IMG/VR virus record: IMGVR_UViG_3300021959_006617
Location: 1 to 51,186 of that record
Length of the DNA: 51,186 nucleotides
Strand: one strand, 5' to 3'
DNA from: a virus
A model generated the notes under the pieces. The model was not told the DNA's origin, did no database searches, and worked only from the letters and a program-made list of their open reading frames with translations. Of this stretch, positions 31,024 through 51,186 are shown piece by piece (position 1 is the stretch's first letter; each line of letters opens with the position of its first letter). Position numbers and translations under genes: made by a program.

Positions 31024-31046
31024 ATAATATGTTTCCCCATTAATAT

Positions 31047-32025: not shown

Positions 32026-33050
32026 TCTGCCCACTCCTTGGCTTGTTCTAAAAGTTTCATGCTGGCTAGATTCTTAGCCTTGCTCTCACACATGATGTCA
32101 GCATAGTTAAGGAAACTTAATGCCCATCTATTAATCTTGTTGTTCCAATAGAAGTCACTGTGCGCTCTAAGTTTAGATTTCTTGTAACCTTGATCCAAGA
32201 GTTGGAAAAAGTTAGGTGCTGTGTCTGGATCGTGATCCACTAGATAGTCTTCTCTAGAAACAGAATAGTGTATCACAGGACGTCTAGCACCTCGCCAAGA
32301 TTCTATGACTCCTTTGAATCTATCATCGCTAGGCATAATGTATTCGCCTGTGTGTACCCAATGGTGATGGATATCTAATACCAATGCGCAATCGTCTTTA
32401 AGCTCGAGGCTGTCTTCTATGCCCCAAGTCATCTCATCGTTCTCTATGGTTATGATATTGCGTGCTTCTGGTGACATACGTTTGAGAGCATCCTTGATGC
32501 CTTGAGGACCTCTGCGTCCTGCGATATGTACATTACATTTAAAGTCTTGGAAGGTTTTACCATAGCCCATCCAACGAGCCATGTCAGTGTGATACTCGAA
32601 TTCTTCTATGCTACGTTCGACTATGTCATCGTTATCGCTAGCAAGCACAGTGAACTGACCAGGATGAAAGCTGAGACGAACATCCAGCGACCTAGCAAGA
32701 TCACCCACCTTGGCAAACTCTCTTTCGCAAAAATCTCTAACTGCGGACTGCCGCCAAAACCACTTCCAATCAGACTGAGTGTATACAGGCAGTATGTCAC
32801 TGCTAAGTCTAACCATTCTAAGATTTTTTTCAAGATTCCCTACCCTCTCAACGAGCTTGTAACAGGCCCGTATGTTATTTTCCATTAGTGACCACAGTTT
32901 ATGCTCAGCATCATTCTTATGTTCATTGAGCCACCTAACTGTGGTGCTACCTGTATTTAACTCCTTGCAGGCATCCTTGGGTTTTATTGATTTTATTTGA
33001 TCTGGTCCGTCGATCCATTTGCAGGCGAAACCTATGCGTTTTGTAGTCAT
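32022..33050 (-). CDS. uvsE: UV damage endonuclease UvdE
   Basis: 342 aa TIM-barrel metal-dependent endonuclease that nicks 5' of UV photoproducts. RLSSD (81-85), LSFHPGQFTVL (126-136), ITIENDE and LDIHHHWVH segments carry the metal-binding His and Glu residues of the family. Light-exposed waters would make repair valuable. A perfect TTGACA-N17-TATAAT ends 6 nt before the ATG, so the mRNA should begin at or near the ATG; no SD is present. Confidence 0.93.
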   Translation of the reverse strand: MTTKRIGFACKWIDGPDQIKSIKPKDACKELNTGSTTVRWLNEHKNDAEHKLWSLMENNIRACYKLVERVGNLEKNLRMVRLSSDILPVYTQSDWKWFWRQSAVRDFCEREFAKVGDLARSLDVRLSFHPGQFTVLASDNDDIVERSIEEFEYHTDMARWMGYGKTFQDFKCNVHIAGRRGPQGIKDALKRMSPEARNIITIENDEMTWGIEDSLELKDDCALVLDIHHHWVHTGEYIMPSDDRFKGVIESWRGARRPVIHYSVSREDYLVDHDPDTAPNFFQLLDQGYKKSKLRAHSDFYWNNKINRWALSFLNYADIMCESKAKNLASMKLLEQAKEWAE

Positions 33051-33056
33051 ATTACG

Positions 33057-33085
33057 ATTATACTATCTCTATCGCCAATTGTCAA
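33057..33085 (-). promoter_or_regulatory. Consensus sigma70-type promoter for uvdE
   Basis: Minus strand TTGACA (33080-33085), 17-nt spacer, TATAAT (33057-33062). Predicted +1 is the A of the ATG at 33050. The -35 lies in the last codons of the glycosyltransferase gene. Confidence 0.8.
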
Positions 33086-33872
33086 CTACAAATTTATCTT
33101 GTACTTCTGCTGGATTAGGATTACCGTGGAATACCGCAACACAGCATTCTAATGGAGGGACCACATCGTTTCTAACTTCTCTAAATTGTCGGACACCATT
33201 TTTCATGTGTAATTCTTCTCTAGATCGTATTTCCCATTTATAACTCTGTATCCATTCTATAGGCCAAAATTTTATAATATGATTCGATGTTTTCCATATC
33301 CAGTCCTGATCTCCTTGTAATCGCATAGCACCTCCTGGATCTTGAATAAATTGATCCCAAATATGTGTTTGTGTTCCGGCGTTCCAAGATAATACTGAAC
33401 TGTTTAGATATTTCCATGACTGATGAAATTTACGATTAAAATCTAATATTCCTACAAATTGATTAGTTTGATATGATAATAGTTTATCTATATTATCGTG
33501 AATAACAACATCCAAATCCATATATAATATTCTACCCTGTAAAGGCAAGGTAGGATCGAACATATGAACTTTATGCCACCATCCTTTTGCGTAACTATGA
33601 TTAGGTCTTACAATACTGCGAACGCCTTCAATAGGATGTTGATCATCGGTTAAACACACAAATTCATAAGGTAATGTTGTATGTTTCGCAACCATATTTC
33701 TTAATTTTTCTACATATTCTTTTCCGTACTTATTACCAAATCTAACACATAAGATATTGGTTTTTTCTCCATTATTATTTTTTAAGAATTTAGATTGTTC
33801 TTTTCTTGCTTTATTTTTTGCCTTAAGTGCTTTTCGTTCGGCTTTAGTTAGATTTTCTTTTGACTGTTCCAT
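33069..33872 (-). CDS. Putative glycosyltransferase (GT-A fold, DLD motif)
   Basis: 267 aa. After a very basic N-terminal segment ([20 protein letters not shown], 8-27) comes a GT-A-like domain: LCVRFGN strand, YEFVCLTDD (69-77), then the DxD-type metal site YMDLDVVI (117-124) and a QGDQDWIW segment. Donor and acceptor sugars cannot be predicted. It overlaps kdsA by 29 nt, suggesting work on a KDO-containing glycan or LPS (inference). The N-terminal LTKAExKALKA motif recurs at the ClpA C-terminus. Confidence 0.78.
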
Positions 33873-34650
33873 ATATCTCTTTTAAGTCTTCTAATATATC
33901 TTTCAATGTATCTAATCTAACCATGTTAGGACCATCGCTGGGTGCGTTGTCTGGATCTTGGTGTACTTCTAAAAATACACCAGACACACTGCCTGTGGCT
34001 ACAGCGGCACGTGCTAGATATGGAACCATGGTCCTATCTCCACCTGTGCTGTTTCCTAAACCTCCTGGTTGCTGTACAGAATGTGTAGCATCAAATACCA
34101 CAGGGTATCCAGTCTCAGCCATAGTAGGAAGGCTACGCATATCTACCACTAGATTGTTATATCCAAAAGTAGTGCCACGCTCTGTTAATAATATCTTATC
34201 GTTGCCAGTGGATGCTATCTTTTCTGCTACCTTGGCCATATCCCAAGGTGCTAGGAACTGTCCTTTTTTGACATTAACCGTGCATCCTGATTCGCCCGCG
34301 GCTATTAATAAATCAGTCTGGCGACAAAGAAACGCTGGAATCTGCAAAACATCTATGCCAGCATCTTTGCAAGGCATGATATGTTCTTTCTCGTGGATAT
34401 CAGTTAATACTGGAACACCAAAAGTATTCTTGATATGGTTTAATATTTCAAGACCTCGATCGATACCAACACCACGCTTGCCTGTTAGGCTAGTACGATT
34501 GGCTTTGTCATAGGAACTTTTGTAGATGAATTGTATTCCTAGTTTGTTGGTAATCTCTTTTATAGCGCCTGCGAGATATTCAGCGTGTTCTTGGCTTTCT
34601 ATCTGGCAAGGTCCTGCTATGATAAAGAAATCGTTGGTATTAATCATCAT
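33844..34650 (-). CDS. kdsA: 3-deoxy-8-phosphooctulonate (KDO-8-P) synthase
   Basis: 268 aa, full length. Condenses phosphoenolpyruvate with arabinose-5-phosphate to KDO-8-P, the precursor of the LPS inner-core sugar. IAGPCQIES (11-19), [55 protein letters not shown] and [11 protein letters not shown] are all family signatures. C15 in GPCQIES matches the Cys of the metal-dependent KDO8PS class (as in Aquifex) rather than the Asn of the E. coli enzyme. It probably raises KDO supply or changes surface glycan in infected cells. Confidence 0.95.
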
Positions 34651-34819
34651 CCTTTTCTTTTGGAAATAAATGGCTGGTCATTTCTACATCATCAACATCA
34701 GCTAGTTCACGGATCTTATCTAGATCTAACTGATCCTCGTTTTTCATGAATGACACTATGATAGAAAACACCACTATCATCAATAGTATTAATATTCCAA
34801 ATATTTCAGCTAGTCCCAT
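34640..34819 (-). CDS. Small single-pass membrane protein
   Basis: 59 aa: [20 protein letters not shown] and a few further hydrophobic residues form one membrane helix (about 4-25), followed by an acidic tail with [15 protein letters not shown] and a KEKDDD end. No recognised family. It overlaps kdsA by 11 nt and follows the QueD-like gene by 3 nt, so it is on the same transcript. Confidence 0.65.
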
Positions 34820-34822
34820 TTG

Positions 34823-35272
34823 TTATCCCTCGTATATCGCTGAGTTAGCACCATGCTCTGCACATTCTACTGAATGCACCCAACAGCGATTGTTTGATTG
34901 TTCTCTGATTAGTTTGTCTGCAAATTTAAATGCGTGTTCAGCAAACTTTTCTGCACCAACGCCATCCATGACTACGATCTCTGCTAGATCCATTTCTTGG
35001 AGTTCCATGAACTTATCTAAGTAGGGATCATTTTTGTCAATGGCAGTTTTGTGATCAAAATGATCTTCTAACCATTTTCTAATCTGTTTGAGTCCACCAA
35101 AGTCCACAGCCCAGTTCTTGTTGTCCAAATGATCACAAGCGAATGTAAATTTAAACTGTAAGCTGTAGCCATGCAATAAATGGCAATGTGAATGATCAGC
35201 ATTAGGTTGTCTAAAGCATGCCGACAGCCCGATGTTATGTCCATAAGTTTTTGTAGAATAATATTTTGCCAT
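34823..35272 (-). CDS. 6-pyruvoyl-tetrahydropterin synthase/QueD-family protein
   Basis: 149 aa. CHLLHGYSLQFKF (30-42), AVDFGGLK and the C-terminal VECAEHGANSA carry the PTPS/QueD frame: catalytic Cys30, His34 and Glu. Relative to E. coli QueD the first zinc His is Cys19 and the HGH second His is Tyr36, a variant I also associate with a proteobacterial subfamily. It may make 6-carboxy-tetrahydropterin for deazaguanine synthesis, or another pterin. I chose the ATG at 35272 (SD AGGAGA) over the longer frame. Confidence 0.8.
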   Translation of the reverse strand: MAKYYSTKTYGHNIGLSACFRQPNADHSHCHLLHGYSLQFKFTFACDHLDNKNWAVDFGGLKQIRKWLEDHFDHKTAIDKNDPYLDKFMELQEMDLAEIVVMDGVGAEKFAEHAFKFADKLIREQSNNRCWVHSVECAEHGANSAIYEG

Positions 35273-35313
35273 CTCTAGTCTCCTGTTTAGTAGCAAGTTT
35301 GATGACACGCAGA

Positions 35314-35321
35314 GTATTTAG
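35314..35321 (-). promoter_or_regulatory. Late-type promoter element CTAAATAC before the QueD-like gene
   Basis: CTCTAAATAC on the minus strand, about 41 nt before the ATG at 35272. It lies downstream of a sigma70-type promoter, giving tandem early and late starts. Confidence 0.5.
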
Positions 35322-35347
35322 AGTGGGATGAATGTCTTAAGTCCACT
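35322..35347 (-). promoter_or_regulatory. Hairpin at the predicted +1 of the QueD-kdsA transcript
   Basis: AGTGG (35347-35343) pairs with CCACT (35326-35322) on the minus strand. The 5' arm starts exactly at the predicted +1 of the promoter at 35354-35382. Confidence 0.4.
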
Positions 35348-35353
35348 TTAGTT

Positions 35354-35382
35354 ATTATATAACCAAGCGTATTTAACGTCAA
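35354..35382 (-). promoter_or_regulatory. Sigma70-type promoter for the QueD-kdsA-glycosyltransferase operon
   Basis: Minus strand TTGACG (35377-35382), 17-nt spacer, TATAAT (35354-35359), 11 of 12. The -35 includes the TGA stop of the upstream gene. Confidence 0.75.
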
Positions 35383-35996
35383 TCCTTGTAGGTAGAAATA
35401 TTTTCAAAATGGACATTATTTTTTGATTTCCATATGCTTGGCATCGTCCAGTCTAAATCATTTAAAATTGTAAAATTAGATTCAGGAAAATAACGAAAAA
35501 CTTTTTCTATTTGATATACCCAGAAACTATAATCCACACCATTAGAATCTTCTTTGGAATAATTATCAGTTCCTTTATAAATGTTATTGACTTTGTTTTT
35601 TAAGGTCGGATATAGATCAAATCCTAATAGTTTAATATCTTTAAATCCTAATGTAGCCGCTACTAATACTGCATAACATCCACTGCCCCAATGTAATGGT
35701 TGATCTTGTTTTCTTTCTCCAGTGTAGGGAAGATTCGGTAATGTTTTAGTATTTTTGTGTTTTCTTATTTTAAAATAATATCTCCACCAATCGTCTCGAA
35801 CATAGATAACGGTATCTTTATTATCTGGATTTTCAGTAGCTTCTTCAGCCATTCTTCGATCACAACATATTAAATGATCCGCTATGAAATTACGATGAAG
35901 AGCATTACATCCTATAATGGTATAATCTGGTTGAAAGTTTTTTAGGTTAATGCCCTGACGACTCTCACCGTTTCCGATGACTAGTGCCTGATACAC
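35379..35996 (-). CDS. Conserved phage protein with Rossmann-like IGNGESR motif
   Basis: 205 aa. ALVIGNGESRQG (4-15), TIIGCNALHR and DHLICCDRRM suggest a nucleotide-sugar or Rossmann-like fold; HWGSGCYAVLVAATLGF and KDIKLLGFDLYP complete a domain like that of DUF115 or sialyltransferase-type proteins. A glycosyltransferase role is a guess supported by the nearby kdsA and glycosyltransferase. The start is GTG (35996), directly after the stop of the fibre gene. Confidence 0.55.
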   Translation of the reverse strand: MYQALVIGNGESRQGINLKNFQPDYTIIGCNALHRNFIADHLICCDRRMAEEATENPDNKDTVIYVRDDWWRYYFKIRKHKNTKTLPNLPYTGERKQDQPLHWGSGCYAVLVAATLGFKDIKLLGFDLYPTLKNKVNNIYKGTDNYSKEDSNGVDYSFWVYQIEKVFRYFPESNFTILNDLDWTMPSIWKSKNNVHFENISTYKD

Positions 35997-39567: not shown

Positions 39568-40236
39568 TTAAACTATATCTAATGTCATAGGAAATATTTC
39601 AGAAATAACTTTAGCACAGGAGTTAGCTATATCCATGTGTTCTTTTTGGGTTCCGTTAGCAGAACGTAGATCGATATAGTGTATCCATGAGCGCAGAGTA
39701 CCGTTCATATACAATCTAGTTTTGGTATTGCCTTCTGGTAAGACAGCACGGGCTTGTTCTTTGGCGATGCCATTAGCGATAGCCCATTCATAAGTTCCTT
39801 TGGCTAAATCGATAACATACTGCTGACGTTTTTCCCATTCTTTTTTAAGTTCATCATTATCAACATCGATTGAGTTCTGTCTGTTTGTGGTGTCCTGTAG
39901 TCGTGCCTCACGTAGGACAAACTGATCACCAAACTCTGCTGGATCCGCATAGCGTTGGCTGAACTCTTGGAATGAGAATGAACGATGTCTTACTATCTGG
40001 TGTGCTATGTCACGGGTAGTGTTGATCTCTAAACAGGCTGATACCATTTCTAATGGTGACCAATGTTTATGCTTGATTAGATATTTGATTAATTTTTCAG
40101 ATGTTTCTTTGTTCATCTGGTTTGATGGATTTGAAACCCTAGCACAGAATGCTATAAGTTCCTGGCAATTTTCTCCAAATCCTAGTTCGGCCGGAGCCTG
40201 ACTGTAAGAAATTAATTTAATAATCGATTGATCCAT
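39568..40236 (-). CDS. thyX: Flavin-dependent thymidylate synthase ThyX
   Basis: 222 aa. Makes dTMP from dUMP using FAD and methylene-tetrahydrofolate. The ThyX signature RHRSFSFQEFSQRY (83-96) and the preceding HWSPLEM (58-64) are intact. The C-terminal LRSWIHYIDLR segment is also typical. It supplies thymidine for phage replication. It overlaps the gene upstream by 20 nt. Confidence 0.95.
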   Translation of the reverse strand: MDQSIIKLISYSQAPAELGFGENCQELIAFCARVSNPSNQMNKETSEKLIKYLIKHKHWSPLEMVSACLEINTTRDIAHQIVRHRSFSFQEFSQRYADPAEFGDQFVLREARLQDTTNRQNSIDVDNDELKKEWEKRQQYVIDLAKGTYEWAIANGIAKEQARAVLPEGNTKTRLYMNGTLRSWIHYIDLRSANGTQKEHMDIANSCAKVISEIFPMTLDIV

Positions 40237-40582
40237 CGTGGTCGTCTTCCTCTTCTAATTCACAAAGGCTTTCTAATGTTTTGTAATGTTCATAGGCTTT
40301 ACGCAGTGCCGCGAATTTCTCTAATTTCTTAGAGTCTGGAGTCAAGATAGCCAACCTGGATTCCACCTTGTCCATAAACTCTTTGAGACTGCGATCACCT
40401 ATTTTAACATCACCACTCTCTGGAACTTCTATATTATCTTGTTGAGGATAAGCCCAACTATAGGTTGGAGTATAATCTATTCCCGTATCGATAGTTCCGT
40501 TATCACCATATTGGAATATACTTCCATCCTCGGCAATATCATCTAACAGTGCTTGGAGTTCTTTGTCGTTCCCGTCACCCAT
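40217..40582 (-). CDS. Conserved acidic phage protein
   Basis: 121 aa, acidic. An N-terminal helix and a YGDNGTIDTGIDYTPTYSWA stretch are followed by a coiled-coil-like helix (about 75-110, LEKFAALRKAYEHYKTLESL) and an acidic tail. I associate the C-terminal helix with T4-like phage proteins of unknown role. TAATG-type junction with the small basic gene upstream. Confidence 0.55.
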   Translation of the reverse strand: MGDGNDKELQALLDDIAEDGSIFQYGDNGTIDTGIDYTPTYSWAYPQQDNIEVPESGDVKIGDRSLKEFMDKVESRLAILTPDSKKLEKFAALRKAYEHYKTLESLCELEEEDDHDGSIDY

Positions 40583-40773
40583 TAGGCTTTTGCTTCTTTC
40601 CTTGCGTTTTTCTCATCTGTGATTTCTTTACGACGAGCTTTAACTAACTTAGCTACTTCTTGTAGAGCTTTTCTAGCACGAGTACCAGCGGCACCATTAC
40701 CACCTGTGAATTTAGCATCTTCTGCTAGGAATGTTTCAAAGTTAGCTTTTAATTGTTCTGTTGTATTTGACAT
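40582..40773 (-). CDS. Small basic histone-H1-like protein
   Basis: 63 aa, helical and lysine/arginine-rich in its second half. GAAGTRARKALQEVAKLVKA (27-46) resembles the HctA/Hc1-type bacterial histone-like helix. Likely to bind nucleic acid. It is the first gene of the thyX transcript, behind a promoter at 40826-40854 and a leader hairpin. Confidence 0.6.
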   Translation of the reverse strand: MSNTTEQLKANFETFLAEDAKFTGGNGAAGTRARKALQEVAKLVKARRKEITDEKNARKEAKA

Positions 40774-40798
40774 TTTTTATTTCTCCGTGTAAAATGTA

Positions 40799-40819
40799 AA
40801 GCATAAATTAGCTATGCTT
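40799..40819 (-). promoter_or_regulatory. Hairpin at the predicted +1 of the thyX operon
   Basis: AAGCATA-N7-TATGCTT, perfect 7-bp stem. The predicted +1 (40819) is the first paired base. Confidence 0.5.
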
Positions 40820-40825
40820 ACAGTG

Positions 40826-40854
40826 ATTATATAACCTCACAAAGAAAAAAACAA
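40826..40854 (-). promoter_or_regulatory. Possible sigma70-type promoter of the thyX operon
   Basis: TATAAT (40826-40831) and TTGTTT (40849-40854) with 17-nt spacing, 9 of 12. Confidence 0.45.
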
Positions 40855-40869
40855 CCTAAAATAGGCGCA

Positions 40870-40877
40870 GATAAGTA
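40870..40877 (+). promoter_or_regulatory. Possible late-type element GATAAGTA before the radical-SAM plus arm
   Basis: GATAAGTA ends 6 nt before the ATG at 40884. One base differs from GATAAATA. No SD is present. Confidence 0.35.
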
Positions 40878-40883
40878 AAATAT

Positions 40884-41858
40884 ATGGAAAATTCATTCAA
40901 ATCTATTCCTTTTGGACAGATTGTTAGGTTTGGACAGCGGACGATGTTAGATCGACCTCTGTTCTCAGTGAGCTGGATATTGGGTAGATTCTGTAACTAC
41001 AGTTGCTCATACTGCTGGCCCTATGCTAATTCGCAGACACCCGACTACCAAACTATAGATGTATATAAAAACACGGTGGATGAGATCAAATCTCAGGCAC
41101 GCAAAAACGGATTCACTGAATTCCACTGGAGCTTTTCAGGTGGAGAACCTACCGCCTACAAACACATGGAAGAACTTATACATCATCTAGACGATGGAGC
41201 CGCGCAGAGCATACACATGACTACCAATCTATCACCTGGTAGCAGATGGTGGAAGGCTTGGTTAACGGCAACAGCATATTTCCAACGCCGTAGCATCACA
41301 GCATCCTTCCACGCAGAGTTCGCCAAGGAACAGGAATTCGGTGACAAGTGCCTACAGCTGATGAGAAATGGAGTTTTCATAACAATAAACCAAGTCATGG
41401 TACCGGAACAGTTCGATGAGCTCTATGATAGGTGCCAGCGTTTCCACGATAGAGGAATAAACGTTACCTTGAAACCACAGAGCGATCCTACAGCCAGCCG
41501 GGTAATAGATGGATATACCGATGAGCAGATAGAAAAGATGCAGACAGGATTCCCACAGCAGGCCCTAGGAGAAGATTTATACCAGATAGCACTCTATGAT
41601 GCGGAAGATAAAGAATATCTGTTCGATCAAGCGGAAAGATTCAACGCTTTTGGATTTAATCGATTCCGAGATTGGACTTGCAATTCAGGATATCAGAGTG
41701 TTATAATAAGAGAGGATGAAGTCAAACGTAGTTACAGTTGCCACGACGAACCGTTAGGCACCTTAACCAACGGCTTCACATTGTTTAACGAACCAGAAAG
41801 GTGTGTGACAGAGAGTTGCGTAAGCTCGGCAGACTCCAAGATACCCAAATGCAGGTAA
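40884..41858 (+). CDS. Radical SAM enzyme 1
   Basis: 324 aa. CNYSCSYC (C37, C41, C44) binds the 4Fe-4S cluster that cleaves S-adenosylmethionine; SGGEPT (85-90) is the SAM-binding motif. Additional C-terminal cysteines (C266, C286, C307, C312, C323) could hold auxiliary clusters in a SPASM or twitch-like arrangement. Substrate unknown. It opens the five-gene plus-strand arm. Its C-terminal WTCNSGYQSVII and SCH order is shared with enzymes 5 and 6, making the three a subfamily. The end overlaps the methyltransferase start by 10 nt. Confidence 0.9.
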   Translation: MENSFKSIPFGQIVRFGQRTMLDRPLFSVSWILGRFCNYSCSYCWPYANSQTPDYQTIDVYKNTVDEIKSQARKNGFTEFHWSFSGGEPTAYKHMEELIHHLDDGAAQSIHMTTNLSPGSRWWKAWLTATAYFQRRSITASFHAEFAKEQEFGDKCLQLMRNGVFITINQVMVPEQFDELYDRCQRFHDRGINVTLKPQSDPTASRVIDGYTDEQIEKMQTGFPQQALGEDLYQIALYDAEDKEYLFDQAERFNAFGFNRFRDWTCNSGYQSVIIREDEVKRSYSCHDEPLGTLTNGFTLFNEPERCVTESCVSSADSKIPKCR

Positions 41859-42451
41859 GCATAGACACAGTGCTGTGTTGGATGGAAGCCATCCGCAACA
41901 GCAAAGATACCCATCGTACCTTAGAAGCATTCTGGCGAGGACAGATGCGTTCCAAGATATGGCTTTGCGAAATATTGTATCAACACGGACCGGCATTTCC
42001 TAGAACCGTTGATATATTCGGTGGATGGATAGGAACTCTAGCCAGCTTGTTGGTAGAAACTTCAGGTATATTGCCAGGACACATACGTAGCATAGATATA
42101 GATCCAGAATGTGAAGACATCGCTAGGACCATTAATATGGAAATGCTTAAAGTCGATAGATTTGAAGCTATCACAGCAGATATGTGTGACTTCAAGAGCG
42201 ATGCAGAGTTAGTAATCAACACCAGTTGCGAACATATCACACAGGAACAATACGATAGATGGTTGGCAAATATGTCAAACGATTCGTTCATAGTGTTACA
42301 GAGCAATAACTATGTGATAGATGAACACGTTAGGATAGCCAATAGTTTGGAACATTTCAAAGAACAGAGCAATATAGAAACGGTATTCGAAGGAACCTTA
42401 GAACTTCCACTCTATGACAGATATATGTTGATGGGAAGGAAGCGTGTTTAA
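41849..42451 (+). CDS. Class I SAM-dependent methyltransferase-like protein
   Basis: 200 aa from the ATG at 41849; the longer frame from 41801 runs through the end of the previous gene. VDIFGGWIGTLA (54-65) is the glycine-rich SAM site, IDIDPECE (82-89) the acidic ribose-binding strand, and INTSCEH (123-129) the motif IV position. The substrate is not predictable. Being flanked on both sides by radical-SAM genes with overlaps, it very likely acts in the same pathway. Confidence 0.78.
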   Translation: MQVSIDTVLCWMEAIRNSKDTHRTLEAFWRGQMRSKIWLCEILYQHGPAFPRTVDIFGGWIGTLASLLVETSGILPGHIRSIDIDPECEDIARTINMEMLKVDRFEAITADMCDFKSDAELVINTSCEHITQEQYDRWLANMSNDSFIVLQSNNYVIDEHVRIANSLEHFKEQSNIETVFEGTLELPLYDRYMLMGRKRV

Positions 42452-43532
42452 TTACGATGAACTTAAAGGAGTACAGATTGAGATAACTAATCGTTGCCAG
42501 GCTAGTTGTCCGATGTGTCCTAGGAACATACATGGTGGAATAACTAATCCTTTGCTAGAAATCAACGATTGGAGTTTGGAAGATTTTAAAACCATACTAC
42601 CAACATCACTGCTACAGCAGTTAGAGTTTGTCACGTTTTGTGGAGACTTCGGAGAACCTATAATCAATGACGACTTACCTGAGATGTGTCGATATCTTAG
42701 AGAAACTAATCCAGATATAACAGTTAATATCCACACCAATGGATCCGCTAGGAACGAAGAATGGTGGCGAAATTTAAGGAGATGCTTACCTGACAGGCAC
42801 GAGATATTTTTCGCACTAGATGGATTAGTGGATACACATCATTTATACAGGCAAGGAACACAGTTCTCGAAGATATTAGAGAATGCTAAATCCTTTATAG
42901 ATGCCGGCGGCAGGGCTACCTGGGTTTTCATAAAATTTAAACACAATCAACATCAGCTGGCACGGGCTAGAGAGATGTCTCGTGAATACGGCTTCATTAA
43001 TATAGAATTCAAAGACAGCAAACGTTTTAAAAAATCTTTTCCTGTTTTAGATAAAGCGGGTAATATCACACACTACCTGGATCAACCAGAACATTCTGTG
43101 ATAGAATTCGTAGGAAGGCAACAGCTAGAAGATTATCAAAGATGGACTAAAAAATCAGAAATCGATTGCATGGTTAAGAGAGATAAAGAAATCTATATAG
43201 ATGCTAACTATGTGGTATCTCCTTGTTGCATGGTAGGAAGTTTTTTAAATACCTATTACGATAATGAGCTGTATCAACGATATGGATTGCTAGATGGTGA
43301 TTCCATAGAACCTGTAGGCAAACAAATACAGGTCCAGGTGTTTGACATAGTAGAACTGCTAGGTGGATTAGAAGCTCTCAATGCCTTAACATCTCCAATC
43401 AAAGACATAATAGAAAATCCCTATTGGCACAAATGGGCTACCTCTGACAGCGATGCCTGCATAGTTATGTGCAGTGAGGATACACCTTACATAAGTATAG
43501 AACAACAAAAAGCCACGGAGAAAAATGTATAG
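42444..43532 (+). CDS. Radical SAM enzyme 2 (SPASM-like, tandem copy A)
   Basis: 362 aa, GTG start. CQASCPMC (C18, C22, C25) binds the radical-SAM cluster at the very N-terminus. The usual GGEP is replaced by CGDFGEP (66-72). C-terminal cysteines (DCMVKRDKEIYIDA, SPCCMVG, CIVMC) form a SPASM-like auxiliary-cluster region. It is the same length as the next gene and about half identical to it, with shared HTNGSAR, FALDGL.DTHHLYR and FIKFKHN blocks, so the two arose by tandem duplication. It overlaps its neighbours by 8 nt on both sides. Confidence 0.88.
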   Translation: MFNYDELKGVQIEITNRCQASCPMCPRNIHGGITNPLLEINDWSLEDFKTILPTSLLQQLEFVTFCGDFGEPIINDDLPEMCRYLRETNPDITVNIHTNGSARNEEWWRNLRRCLPDRHEIFFALDGLVDTHHLYRQGTQFSKILENAKSFIDAGGRATWVFIKFKHNQHQLARAREMSREYGFINIEFKDSKRFKKSFPVLDKAGNITHYLDQPEHSVIEFVGRQQLEDYQRWTKKSEIDCMVKRDKEIYIDANYVVSPCCMVGSFLNTYYDNELYQRYGLLDGDSIEPVGKQIQVQVFDIVELLGGLEALNALTSPIKDIIENPYWHKWATSDSDACIVMCSEDTPYISIEQQKATEKNV

Positions 43533-44613
43533 TTACGATGAGATAAAGCATCTCCATTTAGAGATAACTTCAAACTGCCAGGCCAAGTGTCCGCAGTGTG
43601 CTAGGAATTATCACGGAGGCGTAGAGAATCCATTGTTGGAAGTTGTCGATATAGATGTAGCACGATTTAAAAAGATAGTTCCTGTTGATTTCATCAAACA
43701 ATTAGAAGTTGTATCTATGTGTGGCAACTATGGTGATCCTATAATCAACAAAGATTTGATACCGATAGTGGAATACATCAGACAAACAGACGATACCACC
43801 AAAGTAGATATACATACCAACGGCAGTGCCCGTACAGAAGAATGGTGGAAAGAACTAGCCATAACACTGCCCGAAAATCATCAAGTGAATTTCGCATTAG
43901 ACGGACTAGCAGACACCCATCACTTGTATCGCATTGGCACGGACTTCGATAAAATAATCAAGAATGCCAAAGCGTTCATTGATGCTGGTGGCAAAGCCCG
44001 CTGGATATTCATCAAGTTCAAACATAACGAACATCAAGTAGAATCTGCTAAACAGTTAGCAGAACAGCTAGGGTTTGATAGTTTTTTTGAGAAAGAAACT
44101 TCTAGGTTTATAGGCGATCCTTGGTTTGATGTTTTTGACAAAAATGGTAATGTTGAATATAGATTAGAAGGACCTACAGAAAGCAAGTTAGTTTTCGTAG
44201 ATAGGAAAACCGTAGAGAACTATAAAGAAATATTCAAAGGTGCTGAAGTCACATGTGCTGTAGAACGTGAGAAAAGCATATACATAGATGCGTGGGGAAG
44301 ATTATGGCCCTGCTGTTTCACAGGTGCTGTGCCTTACATCTATGTTCCGCAAGGACAGTTAGGATACCAATATCGCGAAGATGCTAGAGATAGTTTAATG
44401 ACGTTGGTAGATAAGATGGGTGGTATGGATTTTCTGAAGATTGAGAACTCCAGCATCAGAGAAATAGTAGATAGCCCAGGATGGCAGACAGAATGGGATC
44501 GAGGATTTGAAAACAAACAGCCAGTATGCGTTAGGGTATGTGGAGAATTTGAAGAACCAGTACTAAGCCAAAGCAAGGATCAGTTCATAGAACTAGAAAA
44601 ATTCAATGAGTGA
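43525..44613 (+). CDS. Radical SAM enzyme 3 (SPASM-like, tandem copy B)
   Basis: 362 aa, ATG start. CQAKCPQC (C18, C22, C25); SAM motif variant CGNYGDP; C-terminal CAVEREKSIYIDA, WPCCFTG and CVRVC give the same SPASM-like cysteine set as copy A. The two differ mostly in residues about 190-300, where substrate specificity probably lies (inference). Both copies kept all cluster cysteines, so both are probably active. The end overlaps the next gene by 8 nt. Confidence 0.88.
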   Translation: MYSYDEIKHLHLEITSNCQAKCPQCARNYHGGVENPLLEVVDIDVARFKKIVPVDFIKQLEVVSMCGNYGDPIINKDLIPIVEYIRQTDDTTKVDIHTNGSARTEEWWKELAITLPENHQVNFALDGLADTHHLYRIGTDFDKIIKNAKAFIDAGGKARWIFIKFKHNEHQVESAKQLAEQLGFDSFFEKETSRFIGDPWFDVFDKNGNVEYRLEGPTESKLVFVDRKTVENYKEIFKGAEVTCAVEREKSIYIDAWGRLWPCCFTGAVPYIYVPQGQLGYQYREDARDSLMTLVDKMGGMDFLKIENSSIREIVDSPGWQTEWDRGFENKQPVCVRVCGEFEEPVLSQSKDQFIELEKFNE

Positions 44614-45988
44614 AATTAAAAAATGGCAGGATAAGATAGAAACGCTGTCAGGAAGTAAAACTTTCTGCGTGTTGCCTTGGATACATTTCGCTACACGTCC
44701 TAATGGTGATATGAGATTATGCTGTAATGCTAATTCAAGTGGTGCAGGTGGGGATCACGAGATCGGATTAGTCAAGAACGAAACAGGACGTCCTGCTAAC
44801 TTCGGTAAAGAAACTCCTATGAGCGCTTGGAACAATGAATATATGCGTTCAGTGCGTGACACTATGTTACAAGGTGGAATACCAAAGAGCTGTAGCAAGT
44901 GTTTCGTTGAAGAATCTAAAGGAGTAGTCAGCAAGAGATTATGGGAAACAGGCACCTGGATAGAAGAAGGTATAGATGTTCCTGAACTGATAGCTGAAAC
45001 ACAAGAAGATGGAACCGTTCCTGAGAATCTAGTCTATCTGGATCTTAGATTAGGACATACCTGTAATTTAAAATGTATAATGTGTAGCCCACACGACAGC
45101 AGTCAGTGGGTTCCTGAACACAAGAAAGTATTCCCACTGTTCAAAGATCCTGAAATAAAAAGACAGATGGATTGGAAAGCCGATGAGTTCAATAACAAAT
45201 GGCACGAGAATCCTGAATTCTGGGAAGAGATGTATCGCCAGATACCAAATCTCAAACAGGTTTATTTCGCAGGTGGCGAACCGTTGGCTATCAAAGAACA
45301 CAAACAGTTCCTAGAAGAGATTATAAGACAAGGATATGCTGATAAGATACTGGTACGTTATAACACCAACGGTTTGTTGATTAACGATGATACCATAGAG
45401 CTGTGGAAACGGTTTAAAAAAGTTAAAGTAGGATTCAGCCTCGACGGCACGGGAGAACGCAATAGGTACATCCGTTATGATTCGGACTGGGCTACCATAG
45501 AAAAGAACCTACATCTATTAGACAATGCTCCGGACAACATACAAGTCAGTATAGCCACTGCTATACAGATAATGAATATCAAACATCTACCAGATTTAGC
45601 ACGTTGGAAGATTGAACAGAAGTTTAAAAAAGTCAATTTTGAAAATGTCACGGGAGGTATAGAAGCAGGCGGCGGAATAATCAATATGCATCTATTATAT
45701 ATTCCTACGTTTTTAAGCATTAGATGTCTGCCTGAAGGAGACAAACAAGAAGTGCGTGAGAGATTCCGAGAGCTAGGTGATTGGTTGTTTGAACATTATC
45801 GTAAAGATGATTACTACTGGGCTATAAATCCATATGGTTGGCAACGATGGCAAGCGGTGTTAGATTTTATGGACGGTGATGATCATAGTTATCTATTACC
45901 AGCATTCAAAGAATATGTTAATACCATGGATCAAGAACGTGGAACCGATTTTGCAGAAACTTTTCCTGAGTTAAAACATCTAGTATGA
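44606..45988 (+). CDS. Radical SAM enzyme 4 (N-terminal twitch type)
   Basis: 460 aa. An N-terminal twitch half-domain has C21 (KTFCVLPW), C39-C40 (MRLCC) and C96/C99 (KSCSKC), enough for an auxiliary cluster. The radical-SAM core follows: CNLKCIMC (C153, C157, C160) and AGGEP near 215. This architecture (twitch domain first) is known mainly from uncharacterised marine and phage proteins. It is a paralogue of enzyme 7 on the opposite strand. ATGA overlap with the next gene. Confidence 0.88.
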   Translation: MSEIKKWQDKIETLSGSKTFCVLPWIHFATRPNGDMRLCCNANSSGAGGDHEIGLVKNETGRPANFGKETPMSAWNNEYMRSVRDTMLQGGIPKSCSKCFVEESKGVVSKRLWETGTWIEEGIDVPELIAETQEDGTVPENLVYLDLRLGHTCNLKCIMCSPHDSSQWVPEHKKVFPLFKDPEIKRQMDWKADEFNNKWHENPEFWEEMYRQIPNLKQVYFAGGEPLAIKEHKQFLEEIIRQGYADKILVRYNTNGLLINDDTIELWKRFKKVKVGFSLDGTGERNRYIRYDSDWATIEKNLHLLDNAPDNIQVSIATAIQIMNIKHLPDLARWKIEQKFKKVNFENVTGGIEAGGGIINMHLLYIPTFLSIRCLPEGDKQEVRERFRELGDWLFEHYRKDDYYWAINPYGWQRWQAVLDFMDGDDHSYLLPAFKEYVNTMDQERGTDFAETFPELKHLV

Positions 45989-46974
45989 CAGAAATAGTAC
46001 AGGTATTGACAGATAAGAAACAGGATCACCTACGCATAGAATATATGGTAGGTAATTACTGTAACTATAAGTGTTGGTATTGTGGTCCTCACGCCAATGG
46101 TGGTACTCATCGATGGCACAAAGATGTAGATTTCCTGTTAGATAACTTCCGTCACTTGTTTGATTACTACATTAAGCACGGTAAAACTAATTTTGAATTA
46201 AACTATGTAGGTGGAGAACCTACATTATGGCCTGAGATAGGTAAATTCACTAGAGAAATCAAACGAGATTACAATGTATTCGTTACTATGACCACTAATG
46301 GTTCTAGGACTATCAGATGGTGGGAACAGAACGCAGATCATTTTGACAAGATCAGATTCAGTTGCCATCCTGAATTCGTAGATATAGATCATTATATCAA
46401 GGTATTAGATTTAGTCTATTCTAAAAACATAGGAATGAATGCCTTAATCCTAATGGATCCGACTAACTGGGATAAGTCTATAGAGATCATCGAACGATGT
46501 AAAACCAGCAAATATCCTTGGTTTATCAATGCTATGGAAGTGTTTTCAAAATATCAATATACAGAAGAACAACGCAAATATATCTCAAAAAATATCAAAC
46601 GCAGTTCTCCTATATGGTGGATAATGAAACACGAAACACTGTTTGAAAAGAAACCAAAGATAAAATACGATAACGGTAAAATTAAAAAAATAAATCGAAA
46701 CTATCTCAGCCTTAACGATAAGAACTATTTCAAAGGTTGGGTTTGTAATCTCGGATTAGAAAGCATCAACATACAGAAAGATGGTAGGATATCTGGTGCT
46801 TGCCATAATAAACTGTTCGGTATGCGTGATTATTATAATATCTATGACGAAGATTTCAAAGAAAAATTCAATCCTAAGTTAATGCCAACTATATGCGAAG
46901 TAGAAAGATGTTGGTGCCAGCCAGAACAGTTATTAACTAAATCTAAACTTCCGAGCCAACACCCCATTTGGTGA
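45985..46974 (+). CDS. Radical SAM enzyme 5
   Basis: 329 aa. CNYKCWYC (C26, C30, C33), GGEP (76-79), and a C-terminal GWVCNLGLESINIQ, GACHNK and CEVERCWC region that supplies further cluster ligands. Same subfamily as enzymes 1 and 6. It is the last gene of the plus arm; its end overlaps the end of enzyme 6 by 32 nt, head-on. Confidence 0.9.
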   Translation: MTEIVQVLTDKKQDHLRIEYMVGNYCNYKCWYCGPHANGGTHRWHKDVDFLLDNFRHLFDYYIKHGKTNFELNYVGGEPTLWPEIGKFTREIKRDYNVFVTMTTNGSRTIRWWEQNADHFDKIRFSCHPEFVDIDHYIKVLDLVYSKNIGMNALILMDPTNWDKSIEIIERCKTSKYPWFINAMEVFSKYQYTEEQRKYISKNIKRSSPIWWIMKHETLFEKKPKIKYDNGKIKKINRNYLSLNDKNYFKGWVCNLGLESINIQKDGRISGACHNKLFGMRDYYNIYDEDFKEKFNPKLMPTICEVERCWCQPEQLLTKSKLPSQHPIW

Positions 46975-47848
46975 TAGGAATGTCAGAGGCGCAGGTGCAG
47001 TAGTCTCTGGTACACGTGATGGGCTCATTGGGCAACTTGAATGTATCCTTGTAGATGTTCCCTAGACTGCCACCTACCCTACAGGTAGCACGATGTACTT
47101 CACCATCCCAATTAATCATTAGGCTTTCTATACCTGCGTTACACTGCCAACCTTTGTATTGATTTAGATGTTCCTTGATGACATCATTGGCGTGCATTAT
47201 GCGTTCATCATCTACACGACAGTTAGGTTTCGCTGTGGCTTCCTGTGCTAATAACCACTCTAGATCCTTCCCATCATATCTCATATCGTCGAATATGTTA
47301 TGATCCCCTTCTGTCCATCGTATCCTACGGACAGCATATCGTATTCCTTTTTCTTGGAACTCTTTTACTACTTTTTTAACTTCACTGATATAATCATGAT
47401 GCGCCATTATATTCACGAAGAAATCTATCTCAGTATTGTCATAGAATTCGTTAATGACCCTAACTATCCTACGCCAGTCGTGTTCGAAATGTAGGCTGAA
47501 CACTAGATGATTGTAATAGATTTCGTTTTCCAAATACCAACGGCTACCTCTAGTACCATTGGTTGTTAGATTGACCCAGAATATATCCTTGCGTTTGAAA
47601 TAATCTAATAGCTCTTCTATGTCAGGATGTACCGCGGGTTCGCCTCCCGTGAGACTGACACGCAACGGCTTTCCTATCTCAACTAGTTTATCTACGGTCC
47701 GTTCTAAAAGATTGATATCTGTATGAGGACTGTGATTATCGTGTATAGTATCAGGACAATATGTACAGTCATAGTTACAGCGTTTGCCGAGATTCCATTC
47801 TACCTTGAGCTGATCCTGATGTGGCCATACTGATGTTATTTTATACAT
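46943..47848 (-). CDS. Radical SAM enzyme 6
   Basis: 301 aa. CNYDCTYC (C24, C28, C31), GGEP (67-70), C-terminal GWQCNAGIESLMINW, ATCRVGG and CTRDYCTC auxiliary cysteines. Closely patterned on enzyme 5, with which it converges. It is the last gene of the minus arm (PP-loop, enzyme 7, unknown, enzyme 6) and overlaps the unknown gene upstream by 13 nt. Confidence 0.9.
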   Translation of the reverse strand: MYKITSVWPHQDQLKVEWNLGKRCNYDCTYCPDTIHDNHSPHTDINLLERTVDKLVEIGKPLRVSLTGGEPAVHPDIEELLDYFKRKDIFWVNLTTNGTRGSRWYLENEIYYNHLVFSLHFEHDWRRIVRVINEFYDNTEIDFFVNIMAHHDYISEVKKVVKEFQEKGIRYAVRRIRWTEGDHNIFDDMRYDGKDLEWLLAQEATAKPNCRVDDERIMHANDVIKEHLNQYKGWQCNAGIESLMINWDGEVHRATCRVGGSLGNIYKDTFKLPNEPITCTRDYCTCASDIPITKWGVGSEV

Positions 47849-48687
47849 ACACTTTTAACTTTATTATATTTTTCTATTGTTTCGATTATCTCTTCTTCTG
47901 TGTAGTTATCAAATCCGCTTTCTAAGATATTAAACATTGCCACTGGTATTAATCCTAAAGACAGGTTTTCAAATTTTAATCCTGTAGATTTATACCAACT
48001 GTTGAAATCTTCTAATTTTTTATAGAAAGTTTCAACGGTAGTCGATGGACCGAATTTAATCATAAAATCTGCACTATAATATTCTAAAGGACGGATGTTA
48101 TCAATATCTACAATGCTATCACGATCTTTATATACATCAAGCAAAGGCTTTCCTACCTCACAATAGTTTATATATATTTCACCAAATTTCCATTTAAAAG
48201 TAAATTCTTGATAGTCTTGTTCTTCCAATGGATATCTAGGTCTATCTTCAAAAGTTACTACAATACTAGGATACCCGCTATCTCTAAGAAAATGTTCATA
48301 TTCATGTATTAAAACATTAAATCTATCGATAGCCTGCTTTACATGAATAGGTGATGTATTATAAAAATCTGTACCTGTTTCTATGTGTCCTCTTAAATTT
48401 TCAAAGAATTTGTGTAGGTAATTTAAATCTTCCTGATTTTTTATATCGATATTGTTAATAGTTTTAGGAGAATGTTTATTAACTGTGTCTATCTGTATTT
48501 TTAAATTTTCTTTATAGTATTCTTGATTTTTATTAGGCCACCCTTTAAACCTATCCGACTCGTATATATTATAGTTTTGATTTATTTCTTTAGCCCATGA
48601 TTGAGATATGTCATTCTGATAAACATCAAATGTTAAAGTTATTAAATCCTTATTATTAGATAATGTCAAATCTAAATTTTTATACAT
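47836..48687 (-). CDS. Unknown protein between two radical SAM genes
   Basis: 283 aa, soluble, acidic and AT-rich. Not recognised. A helical core LNYLHKFFENLRG (about 108-120) and VKQAIDRFNVLIHEYEHFLR (about 135-154) contains HEYEH, formally an HExxH zinc motif, but the repeated H...E helices could also be a binding bundle. No cysteine-rich region and no signal peptide. It could be a substrate, a scaffold or a partner of the radical-SAM enzymes. It overlaps both neighbours (8 and 13 nt). Confidence 0.6.
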   Translation of the reverse strand: MYKNLDLTLSNNKDLITLTFDVYQNDISQSWAKEINQNYNIYESDRFKGWPNKNQEYYKENLKIQIDTVNKHSPKTINNIDIKNQEDLNYLHKFFENLRGHIETGTDFYNTSPIHVKQAIDRFNVLIHEYEHFLRDSGYPSIVVTFEDRPRYPLEEQDYQEFTFKWKFGEIYINYCEVGKPLLDVYKDRDSIVDIDNIRPLEYYSADFMIKFGPSTTVETFYKKLEDFNSWYKSTGLKFENLSLGLIPVAMFNILESGFDNYTEEEIIETIEKYNKVKSVCIK

Positions 48688-49948
48688 AAGGTTTAAATTC
48701 AGGTACTATGTTTTCTATAGGGCCTTGCCGTCTGGTGGCATCTAATTTTCTGTTAAACTTTAGGAAATCATTCCACTTATCGTTTTGATCTCTAGCTTTG
48801 AGATAGTTAATGTTATCCTGTATCTGTCTTAAAGTTATACCTAACAGTATCGGATTACGTTTAACAAAATCAAAATCTTTAACCTTGTTACCTACAGCAG
48901 TTAGTCTTTCTATAGCTAGTTCTTTTAATGGTTGTGGCAATACCTGTGCTGATAATAGATTAGGATAGCTGACACGATGACTATAGAAAACGATTTCTAA
49001 TTCATCTAAGAAATGTTCTACACATTCTCCAGCCTGTAATATATTACCCGCTTGTGCAGTGAAAGCTCCTACCACCCTAGATACATTTGGTATCTTCTTT
49101 ATCTCTTGGATATTATCAACCACCGTTTGGAACTTACTGTTTCCCCGTATGTATTCATATACATCAAAGATACCATCGATGGATACATTAACAGCAACAG
49201 ATTTAAAACTAGGCCAATAGTCATGAACGGTCCTTCCTCCTTTTATACCCAATGTAGTGCCATTGGTAGCATATTTTATTTCGATGTTCTCACCGTAAGG
49301 TTTCAGCATATCTAATATCTTGTAGTGATGAGGATCCATCAAGGGTTCGCCACCCGCGAATTCTACCCTGCGGAAGTGTGGTAATAGTTTCTCGAATGAG
49401 TCCCACCAATTATCACTGTCATCGAAAGGACCTATATACTTGCCTCGATTCAATTCTAATCTATCTATAGTCTGTGGTAAGAAGTTTCCTTCTTTCTCAT
49501 AGAAAGGTTTAATCTCATCCCAATCAGTCCATGATGTAGAATCTAATGGATGGCACATACGGCACCTAAGATTGCAGAGATTGTTTAATTTTATCTCCAT
49601 GGTAGGCAAATCAAATGGCATGGTATAATCATCACGCAGTTTATCAAGTGCGTTAGGATATAAATTGATGCGTGCTTCGGGTATCTCACCTTTGATATGT
49701 CTCTGACGCAGGCTTTCAACACCTTGGTCCTCTAGATCGAAACAAGGTTTGCAGGCTTCAGGACGCTCTCCATCCAATATCTGTTTCCTCACTTCTCTCA
49801 TAGCAGGACCATTCCAAGTGTATTCCAATGTTTCATCTTGAATCCAACCTATAGGAGCACTGCGACAGCAGATTTTTATAGCGCCATCCTCACGGGTCGC
49901 AAGCCCCGTAAAAGGATGCATACAGAATGTTTTACTTTGTTTGTTCAA
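48680..49948 (-). CDS. Radical SAM enzyme 7 (N-terminal twitch type)
   Basis: 422 aa. Twitch half-domain with C9 (KTFCMHPF), C27-C28 (IKICC) and C66/C69 (EACKPC), then CNLRCRMC (C125, C129, C132) and AGGEP near 195. Paralogue of enzyme 4. The start is a TTG (49948), because the twitch Cys9 lies before the first internal Met. It overlaps the PP-loop gene by 17 nt. Confidence 0.87.
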   Translation of the reverse strand: MNKQSKTFCMHPFTGLATREDGAIKICCRSAPIGWIQDETLEYTWNGPAMREVRKQILDGERPEACKPCFDLEDQGVESLRQRHIKGEIPEARINLYPNALDKLRDDYTMPFDLPTMEIKLNNLCNLRCRMCHPLDSTSWTDWDEIKPFYEKEGNFLPQTIDRLELNRGKYIGPFDDSDNWWDSFEKLLPHFRRVEFAGGEPLMDPHHYKILDMLKPYGENIEIKYATNGTTLGIKGGRTVHDYWPSFKSVAVNVSIDGIFDVYEYIRGNSKFQTVVDNIQEIKKIPNVSRVVGAFTAQAGNILQAGECVEHFLDELEIVFYSHRVSYPNLLSAQVLPQPLKELAIERLTAVGNKVKDFDFVKRNPILLGITLRQIQDNINYLKARDQNDKWNDFLKFNRKLDATRRQGPIENIVPEFKPYV

Positions 49949-50711
49949 TAGCCCAATCTCTTTCTTTACACCAAAAGCATTTACCGCAGGTAGGTACTAA
50001 TACTCCGATATGATAATTAGTGTAATCTATGTTTTTAAATGTACCTTCACAACTCCTAGTTTTGTCAAACAAATCCAATAGTTCTTTGTTCCTATATTGC
50101 TTAACCACCCAATCTTTTTGTACAAAACGGAATGGATGACACGCTAGTCTGCCCATATGTTCCATTATCGTTAGGTGCTTATTATCTTCTGAAGGTTCTA
50201 CATCTCTAGGAGATAGTCCTTTAAAACTTGCGTCTTTTGGATTTTTAGTTACAGCGTTGAAATATACAGGAATGTCTAACTTATGGCATAGATATTCAGA
50301 GTATGCTCTAGACTGTATGTTATCACCACTAACTGTTTTTCCATACTCGTCCATAATGTTAGGTCCTTGCTCTCCCCATTCTAGATCAGGAGCGGTAAAA
50401 TTCTGATGGCGGCGGATATCTATATGCTTGAATTTGTCAGCAAGATATGAATAGACACGAAAACTATCCCATTGTTGCCAAGGTTTAGTCTTCCAACATC
50501 TTATATGTGATATAACATGTATAGGAATGTCGTGTCCTGATTCTGTGACGAATTCGCACAATAAATGCGCCAATAGAGCACTGTCAGCACCACCACTTAA
50601 ACTAATGGCTATGCTGGACCAATTCTTATCAAAAGGTATTTCAACCCCATCTACGATTTTAAAATCCATAAGGTATTTAATCTTACTAGGCATGGTGGTA
50701 AATATTTCCAT
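49932..50711 (-). CDS. PP-loop ATP pyrophosphatase (QueC-like)
   Basis: 259 aa. SLSGGADSALLAH (37-49) is the PP-loop that adenylates a substrate carboxyl or carbonyl. C221, C242, C245 and C248 (CGKCFWC) form a zinc site like that at the QueC C-terminus, though the first spacing is longer. It may be a 7-cyano-7-deazaguanine synthase or an amide- or thio-forming relative. First gene of the minus radical-SAM arm; its promoter lies inside the divergent neighbour. Confidence 0.8.
   Translation of the reverse strand: MEIFTTMPSKIKYLMDFKIVDGVEIPFDKNWSSIAISLSGGADSALLAHLLCEFVTESGHDIPIHVISHIRCWKTKPWQQWDSFRVYSYLADKFKHIDIRRHQNFTAPDLEWGEQGPNIMDEYGKTVSGDNIQSRAYSEYLCHKLDIPVYFNAVTKNPKDASFKGLSPRDVEPSEDNKHLTIMEHMGRLACHPFRFVQKDWVVKQYRNKELLDLFDKTRSCEGTFKNIDYTNYHIGVLVPTCGKCFWCKERDWAIEQTK
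50698..50704 (+). promoter_or_regulatory. Late-type element GTAAATA, 5 nt from ATG
   Basis: GGTAAATA on the plus strand (core 50698-50704) ends 5 nt before the ATG at 50710. Same spacing as before the genes at 3221 and 31856. Confidence 0.4.
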
Positions 50712-51186
50712 GCTTGATAAAACTAATTATACAGTCTCTGAACATCTATTTCAAGAAGCACAGAAGAATATACCAGACTTTGGAGACAGCCTAACACTTA
50801 ATCAAACCGCTGGTAGATTTTTCAAAGATCCATGGATAATCAAAGATGAGTTCATCTCTACAGTCTGGGAGGAGATTTTGGATACAATTCCGGAAGATAA
50901 AGGCGAAGCGAGGTTAATACGACTAACACCTGGCGAAGCATATCCTAGCCACGCTGATATCGATGACAGATGGCATCTAAATATCACAGGAGATAACAGT
51001 TATCTCATTGATTTACAAGAACAGCAACTACACCGAGTAGAACAGGATCAAACATGGTGGAGCATGGATGCTGGCAGAAAGCATGCCGCGGCTAATCTAG
51101 GTAGCGAAGATAGGATACAGCTGGTAGTAAGACAATTATTACCCGACACAGATATCAAAGATCCAAAAAAGATTAAAATCACTCTC
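50710..51186 (+). CDS. Asp/Asn-hydroxylase-like Fe(II)/2OG oxygenase (3' end cut by window edge)
   Basis: At least 159 aa, no stop before the edge. YPSHADIDDRWHLNI (79-93), SMDAGRKHAAANLG (118-131) and DRIQLVV give a HxD...H...R set (H81, D83, H125, R135) as in aspartyl/asparaginyl beta-hydroxylase-type oxygenases. Substrate unknown. Its ATG shares a CATG with the ATG of the divergent PP-loop gene, so the two genes overlap at their start codons. Confidence 0.75.
   Translation, partial: MLDKTNYTVSEHLFQEAQKNIPDFGDSLTLNQTAGRFFKDPWIIKDEFISTVWEEILDTIPEDKGEARLIRLTPGEAYPSHADIDDRWHLNITGDNSYLIDLQEQQLHRVEQDQTWWSMDAGRKHAAANLGSEDRIQLVVRQLLPDTDIKDPKKIKITL
50726..50754 (-). promoter_or_regulatory. Sigma70-type promoter for the minus radical-SAM arm
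   Basis: Minus strand TTGAAA (50749-50754), 17-nt spacer, TATAAT (50726-50731), 11 of 12, located inside the first codons of the divergent oxygenase gene. Predicted leader about 8 nt, no SD. Confidence 0.65.

Follow-up and report, generated by a model that had tools for sequence, protein, structure and literature searches.

The question raised by the locus examined here is what a phage gains from seven radical S-adenosylmethionine (radical-SAM) enzymes encoded side by side, and whether these enzymes act together. The locus occupies positions 40884-51186 of the window, by which we mean the whole stretch analysed, 51,186 nucleotides (positions 1 to 51,186) of the IMG/VR virus record IMGVR_UViG_3300021959_006617. 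We observed that one compact set of about ten genes, mostly for radical enzymes, recurs in hundreds of uncultured T4-like phages, and that this module is virus-restricted at the sensitivity used, with no true cellular copies detected. Judged from the sequence comparisons reported below, we give about even confidence to the proposal that T4-like phages have here a biosynthetic gene cluster restricted to viruses, whose genes act as one pathway. The module genes, with the labels used in this text, are as follows.

R1, 40884-41858, plus strand: radical-SAM protein of 324 residues with a viperin/MoaA-like core (PF04055, E 1.7e-12)
MT, 41849-42451, plus strand: predicted class-I SAM methyltransferase fold, about 200 residues
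R2, 42444-43532, plus strand: radical-SAM protein of 362 residues with SPASM-like C-terminal cysteines, tandem paralogue of R3 (PF04055)
R3, 43525-44613, plus strand: radical-SAM protein of 362 residues with SPASM-like C-terminal cysteines (PF04055)
R4tw, 44606-45988, plus strand: N-twitch radical-SAM protein of 460 residues (NF033640)
R5, 45985-46974, plus strand: radical-SAM protein of 329 residues, paralogue of R1 and R6, with five C-terminal cysteines (PF04055)
R6, 46943-47848, minus strand: radical-SAM protein of 301 residues with five C-terminal cysteines (PF04055, E 7e-16)
U283, 47836-48687, minus strand: accessory protein of 283 residues without a family match
R7tw, 48680-49948, minus strand: N-twitch radical-SAM protein of 422 residues (NF033640)
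PP, 49932-50669, minus strand: divergent QueC-superfamily PP-loop ATPase of 245 residues with a CE(x)19CGxCxxC metal-site-like motif
OG3, 50710-51186, plus strand: Asp/Asn beta-hydroxylase-like Fe/2-oxoglutarate (2OG) oxygenase, cut by the contig end

With reference to the layout, the plus-strand operon runs R1-MT-R2-R3-R4tw-R5 and the minus-strand operon PP-R7tw-U283-R6. The two are convergent, the ends of R5 and R6 sharing 32 bp, and all junctions within and between them overlap by 4-32 bp, which confirms the overlapping packing that an earlier, sequence-only reading of this DNA had described around the methyltransferase, the PP-loop protein, the 283-residue protein and the oxygenase. The seven radical-SAM open reading frames (ORFs) were found at the starts and on the strands given in that reading, and all seven exceed the cut-off of the Pfam Radical_SAM profile (PF04055), with E-values of 4e-11 to 7e-16. 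Among open frames of at least 250 residues, the CxxxCxxC motif occurs seven times in the locus, nowhere else in the window and not once in 100 shuffles. The MT frame opens at 41801, and its start is probably 41849, where the alignment of relatives places a conserved methionine; conservation likewise makes 50669 the probable start of PP rather than 50711. OG3 is divergent from PP; it starts at 50710 and runs off the contig end. Across 39839-48936 the window is matched at 100% identity by another assembly (L218), so the join between the phage genes and this locus is no chimera.

A scan of IMG/VR with PP returned 80 viral loci, mostly at 50-60% identity and nearly all with the same module alongside, and a scan with R7tw returned at least 520 viral relatives, of which the best 80 are 67-78% identical and also accompanied by the module. 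Neighbourhoods were then counted for 41 non-redundant viral loci that extend 8 kb or more to both sides of R7tw. It can be observed that R4tw, R6 and OG3 accompany R7tw in all 41, an R2/R3-type radical-SAM gene in 38 and PP in 37. R5 (at least 27 loci), MT (at least 26) and R1 (at least 22) are given as lower bounds, because these genes are often placed close to the limits of the fetched flank or outside them. U283 belongs to a minority, being present in three of the 41 loci and in further relatives, where it recurs in the slot between R7tw and R6. This genome-neighbourhood comparison had been named beforehand as the check on which the single-pathway idea would depend, and it found the core genes co-conserved. 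The 47 module-bearing virus records examined hold 4-19 radical-SAM genes apiece, and the T4 capsid protein gp23 is encoded in all seven module contigs longer than 180 kb. Phages with the wider gene order of the window (ThyX, QueD, KdsA, UvdE) hold the module at the same site. One locus (L278) has part of the ThyX-side gene order and no module within 10 kb, making it a candidate empty site; some phages may therefore lack the module there.

The searches of cellular genomes and phage records were pattern-seeded or limited by BLAST, so that distant relatives could be missed. Within this scope, no relative of PP was detected in 84,980 GTDB species genomes or in 50,697 INPHARED phage records, and in isolated phages the relatives of R1, R4tw, R7tw and MT are no more than 20-28% identical, with no relative detected for R6. 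The module as a whole was found neither in sequenced bacteria nor in cultured phages. The single good cellular-labelled match of R7tw (36% identical) lies in a metagenome-assembled genome (MAG) labelled 'Gammaproteobacteria', which is probably mis-binned phage, since gp23 occurs on three contigs of that assembly. The contig concerned (L088, Gammaproteobacteria MED685) bears a distant form of the module.

By profile comparison (hhalign), the seven radical-SAM proteins fall into three paralogue groups, R1/R5/R6, R2/R3 and R4tw/R7tw, with E-values of 1e-136 between R2 and R3 and 1e-40 between R5 and R6. Cysteine conservation was assessed in 61-99 aligned sequences per family, with only eight for R2. 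The cysteines of CxxxCxxC are invariant (100%) in all the families aligned, and the auxiliary clusters that the sequence-only reading had pointed out are genuine, being almost invariant in aligned relatives: C266, C286, C307 and C312 at the C terminus of R1 (100% of 61 sequences), five C-terminal cysteines each in R5 and R6, a C-terminal CC plus CxxxC in R2/R3, and N-terminal C-x17-CC-x(37-55)-CxxC sets in R4tw and R7tw. R4tw and R7tw, at 401 and 310 bits, are clear members of the NF033640 subfamily (N_Twi_rSAM, cut-off 170 bits), and the other five proteins fall below its cut-off. The SPASM profile (PF13186) matched the N terminus of R7tw (29.3 bits, cut-off 21.5); R3 and R4tw scored below the cut-off, and R1, R2, R5 and R6 were unmatched. 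The five non-twitch proteins resemble viperin, MoaA, QueE, Tes, STM4011 or peptide maturases, all far below cut-offs. R1, R5 and R6 thus share the radical-SAM core of prokaryotic viperins, MoaA and QueE, and differ from them by 4-5 extra C-terminal cysteines. A viperin-type nucleotide-analogue enzyme (NF038283, cut-off 180 bits) was considered and rejected, the best score being 49.6 bits for R5, and R6 reached only 43.6 bits against the QueE profiles (TIGR03365/TIGR03963, cut-off 206). In the curated profile searches, no module gene exceeded the cut-off of any named pathway enzyme.

The identities of the methyltransferase, the PP-loop ATPase (SGGADS) and the third Fe/2OG oxygenase, proposed earlier from the letters, were upheld by structure and profile evidence. 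The AlphaFold model of PP (pLDDT 91.4) found phage QueC as its best viral structure matches (Foldseek, BFVD) and general PP-loop enzymes in the PDB. With E-values up to 1 accepted, PF06508 (QueC) was detected in 33 of 35 members of the PP family (best 2.5e-5), but the window member by itself gave no such match, and PADLOC had none for PP. All 85 PP members carry SGGxDS, PF(x)4K and CE...CxxCxxC, and none of the 85 carries the canonical QueC marks YxQxHxxE, VPxRN, YPDC and C(x)8CxxCxxC, as QueC and Cap9 motifs are defined in PMC13329287; a canonical QueC/queuosine identity was rejected by this motif test. The same source lists PF(x)4K and the CE(x)nCxxCxxC form for Cap9, which PP resembles in motifs alone, and the long C(x)20 spacing of PP is close to the C(x)19 of QatC. 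According to its modelled fold, PP is a divergent enzyme of the QueC superfamily in the broad sense (QueC, Cap9, QatC), with the SGGxDS PP-loop and a C-terminal cysteine site. It differs from these relatives in being virus-restricted at the sensitivity of the searches and in sitting among radical-SAM genes, not in a queuosine, Qat or cyclic-oligonucleotide-based antiphage signalling (CBASS) locus. Cap9 links the carboxylate of a 7-deazaguanine to the N terminus of a protein (PMC13279940), and the protein-conjugating class of Cap9 and QatC is defined by the joining of a deazaguanine to the N-terminal Gly of a partner protein. By analogy, PP most likely adenylates a carboxylate, which ammonia or an amine then attacks, on a substrate unlike that of QueC.

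For MT, the AlphaFold model (pLDDT 91.4) matched small-molecule methyltransferases in Foldseek, and a sequence search of the PDB gave no match. Since the fold search returned only general class-I methyltransferases and nicotianamine synthase, no specificity is claimed. PF05118 (Asp/Asn beta-hydroxylase) matched 18 of 25 members of the OG3 family, the truncated window member scoring 21.4 bits, slightly below the cut-off of 22.6, and the invariant H81, D83, H125 and R141 of the family correspond to the HxD...H...R iron/2OG site. The closest solved relative, Cpz10 (PDB 7v4f, E 5.5e-19), is the caprazamycin beta-hydroxylase of a nucleoside-antibiotic pathway (PMC9814697), and OG3 is alike in profile and in these residues. 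Further 2OG-oxygenase-like families were noticed near the module in relatives (L070:6196-7008, L030:1951-2703 and L061:5703-6227), the L030 protein matching PF05118. No family match for U283 was found in the profile libraries; its family (47836-48687 in the window) keeps the pairs H92/E96 and H128/E131 together with Y-C176, which could form a metal site.

In order to compare the histories of the genes, pairwise protein distances across loci were correlated after removal of outliers, taking the best-scoring copy per family, though phages often carry extra paralogues. This replaced a two-clade gene-tree comparison, which was dominated by outliers and uninformative. R4tw and R7tw, which are not neighbours, correlate at r = 0.74-0.82. 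Within R1, MT and R6, the values are 0.76 for the neighbours R1 and MT, 0.59 for the non-neighbours R1 and R6, and 0.53. Adjacent genes may correlate poorly, as in R7tw-PP (0.20) and R6-R7tw (0.27-0.37). Because co-divergence is high where genes are not all neighbours and low for true neighbours, R4tw-R7tw and R1-MT-R6 are probably physically or functionally coupled enzymes, and the former two form, within the fixed module, a co-diverging pair of the NF033640 subfamily.

If the locus does serve one pathway, the three radical-SAM types (R1/R5/R6, R2/R3 and R4tw/R7tw) would perform successive C-H activations on one small substrate, which may be nucleoside- or amino-acid-like, with R4tw-R7tw and R1-MT-R6 probably working as coupled units. 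MT would alkylate this substrate and OG3 hydroxylate it, while PP would adenylate a carboxylate and join it to ammonia or to the amine of a target, as QueC, Cap9 or QatC do. Where the phage encodes them, IscU and A-type carriers would help to provide the many [4Fe-4S] clusters. The QueC fold, the Cpz10-like hydroxylase and the viperin/MoaA/QueE-like cores tip the balance slightly to a small molecule of nucleoside- or amino-acid-like type. A more far-reaching version, which we regard as speculative and rather unlikely, is that the virus-only pathway makes a radically remodelled small molecule that the QueC-like ligase attaches to protein or nucleic acid, as a counterpart of the nucleobase-protein conjugation of bacterial defence.

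Several results weigh against the one-pathway reading or its nucleoside lean. Most gene pairs correlate weakly (0.0-0.4), so the module genes recombine as a mosaic and are not inherited as one block. The nucleoside hints are weak homologies: the Cpz10-OG3 alignment spans only about 100 residues, hhalign of PP against E. coli QueC gave 6.5% probability, and R6 matches Tes, viperin, MoaA and QueE with none clearly best. QueD was found in 10 of 15 module contigs (34823 in the window), but two of the seven longer than 180 kb lack it, so a 7-deazaguanine substrate is not required.

The other explanations draw on the same material. The enzymes might modify protein or peptide, the SPASM/twitch-type proteins acting on a target encoded elsewhere, either a structural protein of the phage or a peptide of the host, and PP tagging a protein N terminus in the manner of Cap9. 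Radical-SAM enzymes with SPASM or twitch domains characterised so far mostly act on peptides, R2/R3 are weakly similar to peptide maturases, Asp-hydroxylase-like enzymes are able to act on proteins, and PP has the CE and PF(x)4K motifs in common with Cap9. We nevertheless hold this as doubtful, for the peptide-maturase matches are all far below cut-off and the module has no precursor ORF. Every junction inside the two operons overlaps, leaving no room for a classical precursor, and neighbourhood clustering found neither a conserved cluster of small ORFs nor a small non-enzymatic protein common to the loci; a cluster for a ribosomally synthesised and post-translationally modified peptide was therefore rejected, in agreement with the sequence-only reading. 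Remodelling of surface glycans, in which an unusual sugar or amino-sugar would be made for lipopolysaccharide (LPS) and would keep other phages out or imitate the surface of the host, gains from the KdsA (DAHP-synthase family), cytidylyltransferase and weak GT8-like and sialyltransferase-like matches in the window, and from genes near the module in relatives that read as glycosyltransferase-, short-chain dehydrogenase/reductase- or epimerase-like. It is quite unlikely, as the core holds no glycosyltransferase, epimerase or nucleotide-sugar enzyme and stays constant while the neighbouring genes vary, most of these accessory genes not being upheld by Pfam.

A loose pile-up of unrelated Fe-S enzymes serving several host pathways is how phage radical-SAM genes are read in PMC5332604, and the recombination of most gene pairs fits it. 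The same core together in all or nearly all of the 41 loci, the overlapping junctions and the lack of detected true cellular copies already largely contradict it, and we consider it improbable. A 7-deazaguanine pathway is defined by FolE, QueD, QueE and QueC together. Such a pathway, serving phage DNA or tRNA and built from QueD, a QueE-like R6 and a QueC-like PP, is highly improbable: the frequency of QueD, the weak QueE likeness of R6 and the QueC fold of PP speak for it, while the motif test, the low QueE score and five extra cysteines of R6 and the contigs lacking QueD speak against it, and six radical-SAM enzymes would be left without explanation. Returning to the one-pathway reading, the earlier interpretation is partly supported: the core genes are co-conserved as neighbours and none exceeds a named-pathway cut-off, whereas its list of targets (LPS, tRNA or a peptide) was not established.

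As regards previous work, a T4-like marine genome, TARA_ERS488813_N000010, was reported with 12 radical-SAM genes and an A-type Fe-S carrier (Nishimura et al. 2017, PMC5332604); the available text reads this gene count as Fe-S metabolism and describes neither a conserved set of genes nor a QueC-like ligase nor a pathway. This genome may carry a relative of the present module. Radical-SAM cassettes were mentioned for a pelagimyophage (PMC7029224), and 261 viral 'ahbD' genes of unclear meaning were listed (PMC9301287). Some orphan phage radical-SAM genes of virome surveys, possibly annotated as 'ahbD', may belong to the pathway of this module. We found no description of the module in the literature searched, which left most subscription journals outside its coverage. 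Each enzyme belongs to a known superfamily, though no known system of this composition was found; for this reason, and because the comparisons with known pathways were negative or undecided, the module appears to be new as a system. It signifies that many environmental T4-like phages keep a cluster of about ten enzymes rich in costly, oxygen-sensitive Fe-S radical enzymes, which opens up new radical chemistry and indicates a process between phage and host that nobody has sought. With 9-10 genes, the module is small enough for expression and direct testing.

Other features of the window are given below.

A-type Fe-S carrier, 28973-29293, minus strand (PF01521)
IscU, 30643-31089, minus strand (PF01592)
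Gap ahead of the plus-strand operon, 40774-40883, no strand, 110 bp

With the gene at 9-272 added to the first two, the window record encodes IscU and a pair of A-type Fe-S carriers. The need of the module for Fe-S clusters agrees with this: of 15 module contigs, 8 have IscU and A-type carriers, against 12 of the 50,697 INPHARED records for IscU, a comparison in which phage lineage is not accounted for. Next to these genes lies an Fe/Mn superoxide dismutase gene (31290-31856; PF02777, 5e-24). A sigma-70-like site stands before the plus-strand operon at 40767-40795, the count of such sites being at chance level. No riboswitch or other RNA control was matched in Rfam, and no fusion proteins that could reveal partners were found. 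Foreign origin by composition was rejected, the GC content of the module (0.35-0.42) being like that of the remainder of the window. The phage genes of the window, mostly on the minus strand, are presumably PhoH-like, clamp-loader-like, ClpA-like and large tail-fibre-like. The gene at 32022-33050 reads like a UV-damage endonuclease (UvdE) and is kept in syntenic relatives, and a block of KdsA-like, GT8-like, QueD and sialyltransferase-like genes (33069-35996) is conserved left of ThyX in the lineage of the window. Beside the module in relatives, proteins that read as kinase-like (clusters C9 and C11; L028:17425-18096, L019:6355-7050), without a Pfam match, have at least one copy in about half of the loci, and a protein reading as a pyridoxal-phosphate-dependent enzyme (cluster C15, L082:3415-4296), also without a Pfam match, is present in 29 loci.

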